Assembly (NCBI RefSeq): GCF_003813775.1 | Contig: NZ_RPDH01000003.1 | Coordinates: 620,001 to 684,000 of the forward strand | Length of the DNA: 64,000 nucleotides | DNA from: Chitinophaga lutea | Lineage (GTDB): Bacteria > Bacteroidota > Bacteroidia > Chitinophagales > Chitinophagaceae | Direction: 5' to 3' | In this document: piece after piece, positions 24,317 through 38,442 of the stretch | Numbering within the stretch: position 1 is the first letter of the stretch | Layout: the number at the start of each line of letters is the position of its first letter | Position numbers and translations under genes: made by a program | Notes under the pieces: model-generated | Told to the model about the DNA's origin: nothing | Database searches by the model: none | The model's input: only the letters and a program-made list of their open reading frames with translations

Positions 24317-24415
24317 GCCGCCTCCAGCACGGAATTATTGTGAAACAGGCAGAAAATGGCCGGAAAACAGGCGCTGATCAGGCCACCACAAAGGGTTTCA
24401 TTAGAGGATCGATAC

Positions 24416-24498
24416 CCATACGCCACCCATACGCCATCTATACGCCACCTATACGTTACCTCTTATAGGGGTAACGTATCCCTATCGGAAGGGTATCG
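24416..24498. repeat. 11-bp tandem repeats running into a perfect inverted repeat
   Basis: Four 11-bp units stand head to tail at 24416-24459: CCATACGCCAC, CCATACGCCAT, CTATACGCCAC, CTATACGTTAC. The last unit begins the perfect dyad ATACGTTACC (24451-24460) and GGTAACGTAT (24470-24479). An outer pair, CGATACCC (24410-24417) and GGGTATCG (24491-24498), encloses everything, so the whole block can fold into a nested hairpin. It lies between the 3' ends of two convergent genes. A locus with the same design but another sequence is at 37352-37494. Confidence 0.75.
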
Positions 24499-24589
24499 AA
24501 GAGGTGAGGTTCGCCGGGGTTTCATCAATAGGGTGGCTTATCCGGCTATAGATTTACACCGCTATTCGGGAAGTTTGACATGGGTTGCC

Positions 24590-24793
24590 CATGTCCTGAA
24601 CAGGGTTTACAGCCTTTTTGGTGCAAACACGACCCGGATTTATGCAGTTCGCCCAAGCCGGTCAGGGTGAAACAACTCATTGAATTTGCTGGTCCATCCG
24701 GGATGCAAACAGGCTTGTTTGCATTACGTCTGTGCCGTATGCCAACAGTTTTGTCTGAATCGCCTGATACTTTCCGGCAAAGGGGGAAACGAC
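24590..24793. other. Non-coding stretch with further perfect hairpins
   Basis: No open frame here resembles a protein. ATGCAAACA (24703-24711) pairs perfectly with TGTTTGCAT (24716-24724) around GGCT. CCCGGAT near 24635 is complementary to ATCCGGG near 24697. The stretch may be a structured 3' region or a small RNA. I see no promoter. Confidence 0.35.
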
Positions 24794-34624: not shown

Positions 34625-37066
34625 TTATCGAACGGTTCTGATAATGTCTGCAAATATGCCGGAGGCGGTAACGTCCGCGCCGGCGCCGGCGCCTTTCACG
34701 ATCAAAGGCTGCGCGGAATAACGGCTGGTGGTAAACAGCACGATGTTGTCTTTTCCTTCCAGCTGGTAAAACGGGTGCTGGGGGCCTACCGACTGCAGGC
34801 CTACAGATGCCTCGCCGTTATGGTACCGCGCCACGAATTTGAGGCGCTCGCCCTTTTCGGCGGCCGCTTTCAGCAGGTTGTTGAAATGGTCCGCATGCAC
34901 GCTGAGCTGCTCGTAGAAAGCCGGAACGTCTTTCACGTCGAGGCTGCCGGCGGGCAGGAAAGAATGATTGGTGATATCGTCCATCTCCAGCACGGCGCCG
35001 CTTTCACGGGCGAGGATGAGGATCTTGCGCATCACGTCTTTCCCGCTCAGGTCGATGCGCGGGTCCGGCTCGGTATACCCTTCGTCCTGCGCCGCTTTCA
35101 CCACTTCGCGGAAGCTGGCGCCGTTCACGAAATGGTTGAACACGAAGTTGAGGCTGCCGCTCAGCACGGCTTCGATGGTCTGCACCTTGTCGCCGCTGCG
35201 GATGAGGTCGTTTAGTGTGTTGATCACCGGCAGGCCTGCGCCTACGTTGGTTTCAAAGAGGAACGACGCGTTGAACTTGCGGGCGAGGTCTTTCAGTTTT
35301 TTATAATTGTTATACTCGGACGAGCAGGCGATCTTGTTACAGGTCACCACCGAAATGCCATGCTGCAGGAAAGTACTGTAAACGCCTGCAACGGTTTCGC
35401 TGGCGGTATTGTCCACGAACACGCTGTTGCGCAGGTTCATGCTTTGCACGCGCTGCATGAACTGTTCCAGGTCCATCTCATGTCCGGCTTCCAGTTCTTC
35501 TTTCCAGTTATCGAGCTGGATGCCGCTTTCGGAAAACCGCATTTTGCGGCTGTTGGCCAGGGCGATGATGCGCACCTGAAGGCCGAGTTCCTTGAGCAGG
35601 TAAGCCTGCTGCAATTGCAGCTGTTCCAGGAGCTTGCCGCCCACGTTGCCGGTGCCGGCCACGAACACGTTGATCTGGCGGGTTTCGGTTTCGAAGAACA
35701 CCTCGTGTATCACGTTGAGCGCTTTGCGCACGTCGTTTTTGCTGATCACGGCGGAGATGTTCTTTTCGGTGCTGCCCTGTGCGATGGCGCGCACGTTGAT
35801 GGCGTTGCGGCCCAGTGCGCCGAACAGCTTGCCGCTCATGCCGTGGTGGTTCTTCATGTTATCGCCCACTACCGCTACGATAGCAAGGTCTTTTTCCACG
35901 ATGAGGGGCTCGATGCGCTTGTCGTGTATTTCCTGCACGAACTCGCTGTCGATGCCCACCTTGGCTTTCAGCATATCGTCTTCATGCACGCCTACGGTAA
36001 TGGAATGCTCGGACGAGCTTTGGGTGATGAGGATGACGTTTACTTTTTCGCGGAGCAGGGCGTCGAAGAGGCGTTTGGAAAAGCCGGGAATACCCACCAT
36101 GCCGCTGCCTTCGAGGGTGAGCAGCGCTATTTTCTGGATGCCGGAAATGCCGGTCACCGGGAAGGTTTTTTCGCCGTTGTCCTGTATCAGCGTGCCGTAA
36201 TCGTCCGCCGCGAAAGTGTTTTTGATCCAGATGGGAATGCGGCGGTTCATCACCGGTTGAATGGTGGGCGGATAGATCACTTTGGCGCCGAAGTGCGACA
36301 GTTCCATGGCCTCTTCATAAGAAATGCGGGGGATGGGAATGGCCTGCGGCACGAGGCGCGGGTCGGCGGTCATCATACCGCTCACGTCGGTCCATATTTC
36401 AAGTACGCTGGCGTCCATGGCTGCGGCCACGATGGCGGCGGTATAATCGGAGCCGCCGCGGCCGAGGGTGGTGGTTTCCTTGCCGGCGGATGCGGCGATG
36501 AATCCCGGCAATACCACTACGGCGGCGTTCTGATGCTGGAAGTAACTGGTAACCTGGTGGTCGGTGGTATCGAAGTCTACGAGGGCGTGCCCGAACTGCG
36601 CGTCGGTGGCGATCAGCTCGCGGCTGTCTTTCCATGCGGCGGAAATACCCAGCTGTTTGAGTTTCTCCGCGATCATCCAGGACGATAACAGTTCACCGAA
36701 GCTCATGATCTTGTCGAGGGAGCGCGCGCTCAGCTCGCCTACCTGAAAAATGCCGTCGCACAGGCTTTCCAGCTGGTTGAGCTGTTTTTTCACCTGGCTC
36801 AGCAGGCTGCTTTGCATGGTGATAGGGAAGAGGCCGCGGATGGTATCGAGGTGGCGGTCTTCGATCTCCTGCAATAAACTTTTGTATTGTTCCTGCTGGA
36901 GGCCGGCCAGCTGGCCGCATTGTATCAGTTTGTCGGTGGTGCCGCTCATGGCGGATACCACCAGCGCGAGGGTTCCTTTGCGTTTATAGTTGGCGACGAT
37001 CTGGCAAACCTGTTCTATGGCCTGGGTACTGCCTACGGAAGTACCGCCGAATTTTAAAACTTGCAT
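34625..37066 (-). CDS. thrA: Bifunctional aspartate kinase / homoserine dehydrogenase
   Basis: The 813-residue fusion catalyses the first and third steps from aspartate towards threonine. The aspartate kinase part (about 1-290) opens with MQVLKFGGTSVGSTQAIEQV and has GRGGSDYTAAIVAAAM. ACT regulatory segments follow (about 310-450; for example GSGMVGIPGFSKRLFDALLR and HHGMSGKLFGALGRNAINVR), the likely site of threonine feedback. The homoserine dehydrogenase part starts near 465 with VFVAGTGNVGGKLLEQL and contains EAVLSGSLNFVFNHF and the catalytic region DPRIDLSGKDVMRKILILAR. It is preceded by a Thr/Ile-rich leader peptide and a terminator hairpin. Confidence 0.96.
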   Translation of the reverse strand: MQVLKFGGTSVGSTQAIEQVCQIVANYKRKGTLALVVSAMSGTTDKLIQCGQLAGLQQEQYKSLLQEIEDRHLDTIRGLFPITMQSSLLSQVKKQLNQLESLCDGIFQVGELSARSLDKIMSFGELLSSWMIAEKLKQLGISAAWKDSRELIATDAQFGHALVDFDTTDHQVTSYFQHQNAAVVVLPGFIAASAGKETTTLGRGGSDYTAAIVAAAMDASVLEIWTDVSGMMTADPRLVPQAIPIPRISYEEAMELSHFGAKVIYPPTIQPVMNRRIPIWIKNTFAADDYGTLIQDNGEKTFPVTGISGIQKIALLTLEGSGMVGIPGFSKRLFDALLREKVNVILITQSSSEHSITVGVHEDDMLKAKVGIDSEFVQEIHDKRIEPLIVEKDLAIVAVVGDNMKNHHGMSGKLFGALGRNAINVRAIAQGSTEKNISAVISKNDVRKALNVIHEVFFETETRQINVFVAGTGNVGGKLLEQLQLQQAYLLKELGLQVRIIALANSRKMRFSESGIQLDNWKEELEAGHEMDLEQFMQRVQSMNLRNSVFVDNTASETVAGVYSTFLQHGISVVTCNKIACSSEYNNYKKLKDLARKFNASFLFETNVGAGLPVINTLNDLIRSGDKVQTIEAVLSGSLNFVFNHFVNGASFREVVKAAQDEGYTEPDPRIDLSGKDVMRKILILARESGAVLEMDDITNHSFLPAGSLDVKDVPAFYEQLSVHADHFNNLLKAAAEKGERLKFVARYHNGEASVGLQSVGPQHPFYQLEGKDNIVLFTTSRYSAQPLIVKGAGAGADVTASGIFADIIRTVR

Positions 37067-37140: not shown

Positions 37141-37252
37141 GAGAAAATTAACCCCGCGATGGGGTTGTAATCGTGGTGGTCGTAATAGTGCGGGCAGCTC
37201 CGGTGGAGATGGAAGCATTACGGATAATATGTGAATTGTGTATACGCACTAT
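37141..37252 (-). promoter_or_regulatory. Transcription attenuator of the thr operon
   Basis: On the minus strand AACCCC (plus 37161-37166) pairs with GGGGTT (plus 37150-37155) around a 5-base loop, followed by AATTTTCTC. This is a short intrinsic terminator covering the last leader codons. ATAGTGCG at the leader start (plus 37245-37252) is perfectly complementary to CGCACTAT just before and within the Thr codons (plus 37185-37192). A ribosome stalled on the Thr/Ile run would change both pairings. Confidence 0.65.
37148..37249 (-). CDS. thrL: Threonine-operon leader peptide (thrL-like)
   Basis: A 33-codon frame starts with GTG at 37249 and ends at TAA 37148-37150. Codons 21-29 read Thr-Ile-Thr-Thr-Thr-Thr-Ile-Thr-Thr, seven threonines and two isoleucines in nine codons, followed by PSRG and stop. 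This matches the logic of enterobacterial thrL: ribosomes stall at these codons when charged tRNA-Thr or tRNA-Ile is scarce. The frame lies between the thr promoter and thrA, 81 bp before the thrA ATG. A terminator-like hairpin overlaps its last codons. The sequence has no in-frame ATG, so GTG is the only plausible start. Confidence 0.85.
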   Translation of the reverse strand: MRIHNSHIIRNASISTGAARTITTTTITTPSRG

Positions 37253-37274: not shown

Positions 37275-37306
37275 CAAAGGTGCAAAATTTAAAACGAAAA
37301 TACAAA
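37275..37306 (-). promoter_or_regulatory. Promoter of the thr operon
   Basis: On the minus strand TTTG (plus 37303-37306) is followed after 20 bp by CACCTTTG (plus 37275-37282), close to TAnnTTTG. Transcription would start about 20 nt before the leader-peptide GTG. Confidence 0.5.
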
Positions 37307-37351
37307 CGGTATTGTAAAAAATTAGAAAATTTCTAAACGGAGGGGTGTCTT

Positions 37352-37494
37352 ATCCTCCTGCCATCCTCCTGTGATCCTCCTGTGTTTGTCCTGTCATTGT
37401 CCTGTGATTCTCCTGTGCTGTTCACGACCCTGGCGGATTTGAAGGTGTTTGACAGGAGGATCACAGGAGGATGGGTGAAGGATCGGAGGAGGAT
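37352..37494. repeat. 11-bp tandem repeats with an inverted 11-bp repeat arm
   Basis: Six 11-bp units stand in tandem at 37352-37417: ATCCTCCTGCC, ATCCTCCTGTG twice, then TTTGTCCTGTC, ATTGTCCTGTG and ATTCTCCTGTG. After 33 bp, four 11-bp units of the opposite orientation follow at 37451-37494 (GACAGGAGGAT, CACAGGAGGAT, GGGTGAAGGAT, CGGAGGAGGAT). A 22-bp stretch (37362-37383) is perfectly complementary to 37452-37473, giving a long potential hairpin. The block lies between the 3' end of a membrane-protein gene and the thr promoter. It shares its architecture, but not its sequence, with 24416-24498. Confidence 0.85.
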
Positions 37495-37599
37495 GGCGGG
37501 TTTCGGGGGATGGCCGAAAAAGGTCAAATGCCAGGCGAGAGGTGTTTTGGGCCCCAAAAGCATCATTCAGCGGACGGGATGCAGGCATCGGGACTCGTT

Positions 37600-38442
37600 C
37601 TATTCCTCTCCGATATCGAGGACGTCTTCATCCTGCGTGAATATCCTGTAAACGAGAAAACTCACGAATAGTACGGCATTTACATAGATAAACGCTCTCA
37701 CTACCGTTGTGATGGTGAAATTTACCCATATATTGCCCGTCAATATGAGCACGGGCTGCAGCAGCAGCTTGTATATAACCAGGTAGGCCGAGCCAATGAG
37801 CAGATGGCAGGCGTACCCGGCGACGAGCAGCGTGAAGAATGCAGGACGGTATATTATTGAAACCGGCAGGCGGCTGGTTCTGAAATACAGCATTCCGGCA
37901 AAAAAACATAATAACAACGAATAGGTAACGTCCGCAATATTGCTTAACCAGGGTTTGAACGCGCTTGCGCTGATATTCCTGAAAACACCGGCGCTCTCTT
38001 CTTCGCCAGGTCTGAACCGGTTAAAGCTTATTTCTTGGTTGAAGTAGTAAATAACGGTGACAGTGAGGACCGCTACCAGGTACAGATTCCAGGTTGCTCC
38101 CGGGATGGATTTCGATATGGATTCAAAAGAAGTGAACGGCCTGCCATTCTTCAACTGAGGGCGGATGCAGCCAGCCAGTATGCCCGCACTCATAAACAGG
38201 ATGCCGAAACCCAGGTTGACCGCATGTTCTATCGAGCCCATCAGGGTGTAGCCTTCTCCGGGGATATTCAGCCATTCGGGCTCAAATACAACGGCAAGGC
38301 CAAAAAAGATAATAAATGAAAAAACGGCGCCCAGCACCAGGAAAACACGGCTGAAAACGAGACTGGCGCCGCTCCATTCTTTATAGTAGCGGTTGCATAA
38401 CTCCAGGGTTCCGGAAAAGGCATGGTAGAGGCGTTTCCACAT
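37600..38442 (-). CDS. Integral membrane protein of unknown function
   Basis: The 280-residue protein has about six hydrophobic helices (near residues 30-52, 70-90, 118-136, 170-188, 200-222 and 245-268). It has no signal peptide and no motif I recognise. The N-terminus WKRLYHAFSGTLELCNRYYKE is amphipathic and basic, and the C-terminus is acidic (DEDVLDIGEE). Two long hydrophobic stretches flank a loop with GEGYTLMGSIEHAVNLGFGI. It is transcribed alone, away from hmgA, and its 3' end is followed by the 11-bp repeat block. Confidence 0.65.
   Translation of the reverse strand: MWKRLYHAFSGTLELCNRYYKEWSGASLVFSRVFLVLGAVFSFIIFFGLAVVFEPEWLNIPGEGYTLMGSIEHAVNLGFGILFMSAGILAGCIRPQLKNGRPFTSFESISKSIPGATWNLYLVAVLTVTVIYYFNQEISFNRFRPGEEESAGVFRNISASAFKPWLSNIADVTYSLLLCFFAGMLYFRTSRLPVSIIYRPAFFTLLVAGYACHLLIGSAYLVIYKLLLQPVLILTGNIWVNFTITTVVRAFIYVNAVLFVSFLVYRIFTQDEDVLDIGEE

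Follow-up and report, generated by a model that had tools for sequence, protein, structure and literature searches.

An 11-bp phased foldback repeat in the thrA spacer of Chitinophaga lutea and its relation to other intergenic 11-bp arrays of the genus

We analysed a stretch of 64,000 nucleotides, the window, that corresponds to C3:620001-684000 of the 6.6-Mb genome of Chitinophaga lutea. On its minus strand thrA (34625-37066) is separated by a spacer of about 530 bp from a gene (37600-38442, minus strand) for a 280-aa protein that has no Pfam or NCBIfam match. The spacer holds a foldback repeat, locus 2, which begins with six direct 11-bp units of the ATCCTCCTGTG type (37352-37417, plus strand; 6.0 copies with 0 indels in Tandem Repeats Finder). 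A middle part of 34 bp (37418-37451) follows that, according to core comparison, contains the core of a repeat family named F2 (AACACC-TCAAATCCGCCAGGGT on the minus strand). The element continues with four inverted 11-bp units of the ACAGGAGGATC type (37452-37495, plus strand), seen in the sequence, in the arms and with Tandem Repeats Finder, which read ACAGGAGGATC, ACAGGAGGATG, GGTGAAGGATC and GGAGGAGGATG. The F2 end anchor, GAAACCCGC on the minus strand, was located at 37496-37504 by anchor comparison. The earlier note on this DNA had claimed six direct and four inverted units with 22 bp of perfect complementarity. The units were confirmed at 37352-37495, and the perfect arm exists but measures 23 bp, one more than claimed, with its 5' half at 37361-37383 (plus strand) pairing with 37452-37474; with mismatches allowed, the arms reach 32 nt at 91%. 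Shuffled sequences never attained the scores of the locus: the lag-11 score was 32.5, where 1000 dinucleotide shuffles of 37300-37540 rose no higher than 10.0 (0/1000 reaching it), and the hairpin score was 24.5, with 12.5 as the best of 300 shuffles (0/300). Folded as RNA, both strands of locus 2 were stabler than all 200 of 200 shuffles (z -4.9 and -6.9).

Two other features of the window were observed on the way. Between the hairpin and thrA there is a leader frame on the minus strand (37149-37191) with a Thr/Ile run (ARTITTTTITTPSRG, then a stop) that ends in a CCCC..GGGG stretch, and a similar Thr/Ile run was present in four of the four other Chitinophaga displayed (L042, L043, L046 and L047); from its letters, this leader looks like thr-operon attenuation in Bacteroidota. 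A scan of the 64-kb window with Rfam returned one match, unrelated to the repeats, namely a DUF805 RNA (RF03081) at 2025-2088 on the plus strand with 62.8 bits versus a gathering score of 51.1.

Locus 2 and another array of the window, locus 1, are copies of dispersed families and not single sites. With up to 3 mismatches, a 20-mer of the F2 unit gave 33 matches in nine loci of the genome, and the reversed control gave 0. The F2 element is about 150 bp long with 11-bp inner steps, and all nine own copies carry the core AACACCNTCAAATCCGCCAGGGT (0-5 mismatches) with, by eye, three or four units on one side. In all seven copies of the nine where it could be measured, the distance from anchor to core was 35 or 46 bp, values one 11-bp unit apart. 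The unit variants TCCTGTG, TTCGGTG, TATAGCG and TTGTGTG recur among the copies, and in two of them (C2:2338251 and C2:476376) the TTGTG variant was seen by eye at matching places of both arms. Searched at up to 2 mismatches in 39 relatives (24 congeners), the F2 unit had a match in one, a relative from another family, at a single site with no surrounding repeat. The nearest named relative found is the sister species C. alhagiae, whose ThrA is 94% identical; it holds one F2 relative (L269:4107-4214), with 7 mismatches in the core and the TTCGG type in both arms.

Locus 1 is a family F1 array of the ACCTATACGCC type (24414-24461, plus strand, Tandem Repeats Finder), and F1 comprises four loci, the other three being C2:1573784, C2:1867247 and C3:554220, a count that omits two further matches at 3 mismatches. 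Locus 1 had been described as having the same plan as locus 2; its 11-bp array is real, yet the inverted arms, being short, score less than the hairpin threshold of 13, so that the likeness in plan is weaker there. That the two loci have the unit length in common and not the sequence was borne out, and several families share the length of 11. A third family, F3 (ACGAACCTACA), has 69 matches in 27 places, 15 of these at no more than 1 mismatch as counted by eye; 4 of 11 F3 loci passed the core pattern, so 4 were aligned. To the right of several F3 copies, not all, an extra repeat TCTGCACTCATGCACATTTT occurs one to several times (L201/L145, L194, L199, L126).

The lack of further loci had been named in the earlier note as what would speak against its proposal. 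Such loci were found, and lag 11 was the commonest tandem lag both here and in the other Chitinophaga sampled. A census at score 14 of 864 kb (40 stretches plus the window) of the 911 kb of the own contig, C3, gave 10 arrays at lag 11 and at most one at every other lag from 7 to 25, except 21 (3) and 22 (9, a harmonic). The block-shuffled control (300-bp blocks) gave 0 arrays at every lag from 5 to 25 at scores of 15 and 18. The nine long hairpins of C3 (arm of at least 22) had a lag-11 identity of 0.67 versus 0.13-0.25 at lags 9, 10, 12 and 13. Contig C9 of C. alhagiae (784 kb) contained nine lag-11 segments, or seven arrays after merging of neighbours, and 38 thrA regions (828 kb), labelled or placed as Chitinophaga with two carrying other names, contained 15 lag-11 arrays, above every other lag. 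The array units differ between Chitinophaga species. Outside Chitinophaga, 3 lag-11 arrays were detected in 783 kb (two in Niastella and one poly-A run), and 315 kb of other genera of the order gave 0. The 11-bp class is not uniform over the genus Chitinophaga. In the 30 long hairpins of the 38 thrA regions lag-11 identity was 0.30, no higher than at other lags, because many of them belong to other hairpin kinds, and three of seven long hairpins were phased in genome G048 (400 kb sampled).

The arrays could be ordinary minisatellites that slip at any period, in which case 11 would be chance or a habit of the lineage. Lag 7 and its multiples were indeed the commoner kind in the non-Chitinophaga DNA sampled, so lineages differ in the period that they favour. 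However, lag 11 leads not just in the own genome but also in the sister species and the remaining regions of Chitinophaga, the units being different, and inverted partners, dispersal and co-varying arms are unexpected of simple slippage, and we regard this explanation as very improbable.

The rule proposed in the earlier note had included reverse-complement units, and this part was not borne out. Among 30 arrays from samples that were not chosen by an array, an inverted partner was present in 14 at hairpin score 13, as compared to 15 of 300 in a random intergenic control; the common feature is therefore the 11-bp phasing and not the hairpin. A-form RNA has 11 bp per turn, and RNA geometry as the reason for 11 is weakened by the arrays, about half, that lack an inverted partner. 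A consensus 11-mer shared across families was also considered and rejected. The first pass gave 6.29 bits (77 arrays) versus 4.50-4.95 in 20 shuffles, and the signal was gone after removal of near-duplicates (56 to 18 units; 6.58 bits versus null means of 6.91 and 6.93), a harsh test since this removal discards real relatives too.

Classification of the arrays by position relative to genes, as the earlier note had suggested, placed 17 of 17 between genes (10/10 in C3 and 7/7 in C9 of C. alhagiae), as called by a home-made gene finder with an intergenic fraction of 13.7%. Convergent spacers made up 5 of the 17 array spacers versus 30 of the 227 spacers that measure 250 bp or more, which are small numbers. 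When C3 was compared with C9, seven of 11 array sites had matching flanks. Five of these seven C. alhagiae spacers had no array; for the site in the window, the two species also have different neighbouring genes. In the five, the extra own DNA is larger than the array, and inspection by eye revealed no terminal inverted repeats flanked by a target duplication, such as would enclose a complete MITE. In the other two, arrays of another unit replace those of C3: C. alhagiae has AAGCGAACGAG units instead of F1 at the locus 1 site, and at the C3:394813 site it has copies of a motif M, described below, with a ACCCATATCCC-type array, versus three M motifs with F3 in C3. At the seven matching spacers, the arrays thus account for part of the intergenic difference between the two sister species. 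Conservation of array positions between them is no more than suggestive: by gene-pair count one position was shared over 158 spacers (P 0.05, and P 0.17 over 45 large spacers), and a second was found by inspection alone. The region upstream of thrA is free of arrays in C. alhagiae; in several other species it holds, judged by eye, arrays of 11-bp or foldback type that are unrelated.

The two arms of a hairpin were compared in 17 copies of the family in genome G048, found with a pattern that leaves the variable places free. In these copies 95.8% of cells were paired, a fraction that is partly built in since the search pattern fixes much of both arms, so that the free places are the informative ones. 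Fifteen cells had changed on both sides versus 4.4 expected, and 0 of 500 shuffles were as high; when the partner was slid by one to three columns, pairing fell to 29-37%. Two further measures of co-variation in G048 were not above the shuffles (87 and 121 of 500). In this family, the one tested, the arms co-vary. Compensatory changes of this sort would be expected from template switching and equally from selection for a folded RNA or DNA.

The arrays might be selected binding sites or RNA structures, serving a nucleoid protein, a regulator, a terminator or an sRNA, in which the 11-bp phasing would turn identical letters towards one side of the helix. Such a role would suit the compensatory changes, the phasing at roughly one turn that is shared by families whose units differ, the intergenic position of all 17 arrays, the strong RNA folding of locus 2 and the share of convergent spacers. 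Against it stand the presence of arrays, which is not conserved at most matching spacers, the absence of a unit consensus once near-duplicates are removed and the roughly half of arrays that have no inverted partner. We consider selected sites of this kind improbable.

Some arrays, locus 1 included, are adjoined by a motif that is absent from the earlier note, motif M (GTGTAAACCTNNNTCAGGAC), which is an IS3-family end. At locus 1 one copy with 4 mismatches (24540-24559, minus strand) points at the array and a second one with 2 mismatches (24593-24612, minus strand) has the same direction. IS3-family elements are marked by OrfA and OrfB with a DDE core, TG..CA ends and a short target duplication. 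In G048, M is the end of a 1493-bp insertion sequence encoding OrfA (138 aa) and OrfB (303 aa), of which OrfB matched the IS3 family with 238 bits and OrfA weakly matched IS3 with 26 bits versus a cut-off of 160; the array neighbour in G048 is by these marks an IS3-family insertion sequence. It lies at or just inside the hairpin foot. In all four G048 copies that were read through, a 3-bp target duplication brackets the insertion sequence alone and leaves the array outside. When the empty sites were joined, a longer hairpin formed across the insertion in two of the four and a longer array in a third, which indicates that the array there preceded the insertion sequence.

The orientation of M relative to the arrays was counted in two genomes. 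In G048, the hairpin lay outward at nine of nine exact M sites (7/9 by lag-11 score), and in G020 an outward lag-11 array was found at 13 of 13 sites with at most 1 mismatch, compared with 5 of 1000 stretches in a random control for an outward array. Combined at up to 1 mismatch, the M end faced an array or hairpin at 22 of 24 sites. Both misfits are one-mismatch sites of G048: L375 has no array; at L376 the hairpin lies inward of M and is faced there, as judged by eye, by a second M of degenerate sequence. A G048 site with two mismatches, L377, has an outward array. Inward lag-11 arrays were found at 0 of 22 distinct M sites, a control weaker than the outward one because 17 of the 22 sites covered 75-133 bp inward as compared to 300 bp outward. 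M matches at up to 2 mismatches numbered 19 in G020 and 21 in G048, of which 13 and 12 were examined for facing; other ends of the insertion sequence are outside this count.

Over the genus, M occurs in 67 of 79 Chitinophaga genomes (up to 2 mismatches) and in 43 of 298 genomes of the order (up to 1 mismatch), four Chitinophaga among them. In the own genome there are nine M sites at up to 1 mismatch, and seven of them are located at an array or a locus of F1 or F3. In thirty genomes of the genus, represented by one M locus each (of the 67), an outward lag-11 array with a score of at least 9 was present in 13 of the 19 loci with up to 1 mismatch. The six misses were L163, L166, L171, L177, L179 and L182; at L163 an array can be made out by eye, and L166 has an inner one. 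Of 20 M sites picked from ten genomes of other genera, 0 had a lag-11 array, three being at heptamer arrays and 17 at neither kind, from which it follows that the insertion sequence does not bring the array along. The IS end stands beside 7-bp tandem arrays with scores up to 127.5 at L355, L366 and L367, all outside the genus, and in two of them these are of the CCCTCCA type. As a universal partner of the arrays M was rejected, as 6 of the 30 arrays of the unbiased sample have it within 250 bp at up to 4 mismatches.

Copies of M often stand in tandem at 31-32 bp in G020, F1 and F3, and tandem copies at about 29-32 bp, near three helical turns, were also observed in L141 (15017-15100), L065 (1935-2015), L348 and L352. 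When compared by eye, the copies beside the own F3 look like the opposite end of the G048 insertion sequence. In G020, M, a linker and the array are conserved together as two families of 9 and 4 copies, which has the appearance of one combined mobile unit and speaks against the reading favoured below. No transposase match was obtained in the stretches tested, namely two 3-kb stretches of G020 and the joined C3, and M motifs without a transposase may represent ends that have decayed or a mobile unit shared with the array. Short elements of two M-like ends placed back to back with almost nothing between were seen in L233 (about 1858-1940), L375 and L376; the pair in L233 sits between a AAGTAACCCTT array and an F2 hairpin. 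In L229, a G046 hairpin is faced by the IS end from both sides.

These associations bear on the possibility that an IS3-family transposase moves a non-autonomous mobile element in trans and that the arrays belong to this element, the hairpin being a by-product. The M repeats about 31 bp apart (three turns) together with the 11-bp array would then form a helically phased binding region for the transposase or an accessory protein. The tandem M copies, 31-32 bp apart, that accompany F3 and occur in several species, the G020 composites conserved as two families, the facing of M towards the array in 11 of 12 cases of the unbiased sample and the back-to-back pair between two arrays in L233 are all in line with a mobile element. 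On the other hand, M is near few of the unbiased arrays and occurs at up to 1 mismatch in one of the nine F2 loci, the 3-bp duplications of the four G048 copies leave the array outside, and no 11-bp array stands beside the IS end at any of the 20 sites from other genera. Taken with its binding region, the mobile element is in our view unlikely, while having some weight.

As far as comparison of sequences can tell, Chitinophaga has many sequence families of this class, and F2, to which locus 2 belongs, is among them. We favour a reading, to which we give an even chance, in which locus 2 is an F2 copy within a REP-like class of non-coding intergenic foldback minisatellites whose 11-bp steps are maintained by slippage and arm-to-arm correction and which an insertion sequence uses. 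The arrays would lengthen and shorten by slippage of one 11-bp unit, and template switching in the course of replication would rewrite each arm from the other, which would let the unit sequence drift as a block with its period kept. The 11-bp step, which is close to one helical turn, would most simply be a geometric constraint or an inherited period, and the insertion sequence would be a user of the arrays and not their maker. One helical turn is a natural guess for the period of 11, and the M spacing of 31-32 bp (three turns) agrees with it. Slippage plus template switching had been put forward in the earlier note; the unit-step differences in length and the matched changes in the arms fit it, but by itself it does not explain a period of 11 in unrelated families. 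Arm correction, moreover, cannot explain the direct-only arrays, given that 14 of 30 have a partner. Repeats that share a period and not a sequence separate what is copied from what is constrained, which as a rule go together. They offer a natural system for asking if the unit length of bacterial minisatellites is dictated by helical geometry, by what means the arms of palindromes are corrected in nature, and whether an IS3-family transposase can recognise a target from its architecture instead of its letters.

A more speculative proposal, and one that we think rather unlikely, is that a dedicated Chitinophaga process, a DNA-binding or nuclease/polymerase activity acting once per helical turn, would write, keep or use 11-bp arrays regardless of their sequence, with insertion sequences docking on the products. 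If true, the period would be inherited by mechanism and the letters would be free to change.

The favoured reading, slippage and arm correction in REP-like minisatellites, was compared with known systems. The earlier note knew of no named repeat family of this kind, and we likewise found no described family in Rfam or in the literature, mostly open-access; a description of 11-bp phased repeats in Chitinophaga was not found in the literature either, which here means mostly open-access titles and abstracts. The main text of a survey from 2026, which covers hairpins in 118,019 genomes, is without the words Chitinophaga, Bacteroid- and periodic- (PMC13155455). Template switching is reported, in the text available, to create and maintain hairpins (PMC8794818, and PMC7202029 on E. 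coli), and the quasipalindromes corrected in this way resemble ours in that the arms are kept alike with paired changes; the available text of these papers, in contrast, has nothing on 11-bp phased arrays. BrickBuilt of Porphyromonas gingivalis is described in the accessible text as a MITE that holds a minisatellite with a 23-nt unit and has small terminal inverted repeats (PMC4596501). Like our arrays, it is an intergenic multi-copy minisatellite in a member of the Bacteroidota, inside a small mobile-looking element, but it is one family with a 23-nt unit and small terminal inverted repeats, and arms made of repeat units are not described in that text. The arrays here have 11-bp units, and no 23-bp lag array, as a BrickBuilt-type unit with inverted leader and tail ends would give, was present in the own C3.

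According to the accessible part of one report, REPs are targets of insertion sequences of five families, IS3 among them, with IS1397, ISKpn1 and ISPsy8 (IS3 family) inserting into REPs, and ISPsy8 makes a 3-bp duplication and inserts at the symmetry axis of the hairpin (PMC1525189). The G048 case is similar in its IS3-family transposase, its palindromic intergenic target and a 3-bp duplication as in ISPsy8; it is unlike those described there in that the target units differ and that the insertion is at or near the hairpin foot with a fixed facing end. Mobilisation by a RAYT was rejected for the own genome, with 0 matches to the Y1 REP-associated transposase (PF01797); among 15 congeners searched, G001 had 2 matches and G015 had 1. 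REP/BIME elements are described, in the text available, as having a unit of 20-40 bp with a tagged end (PMC3733652), and F2, of about 150 bp with 11-bp inner steps, is not such a unit. Like the REP/BIME and REPIN sequences of enterobacteria and pseudomonads, the foldback repeats are short palindromic intergenic elements dispersed within a species. They differ in having arms of 11-bp tandem steps and several families per genome, with about half of the arrays direct only. F2 and F3 are palindromic, intergenic and present in many dispersed copies, as REP/BIME elements are, and the direct-only arrays do not fit that description. The best reading of this comparison is that the foldback minisatellites described here resemble REPs as a class.
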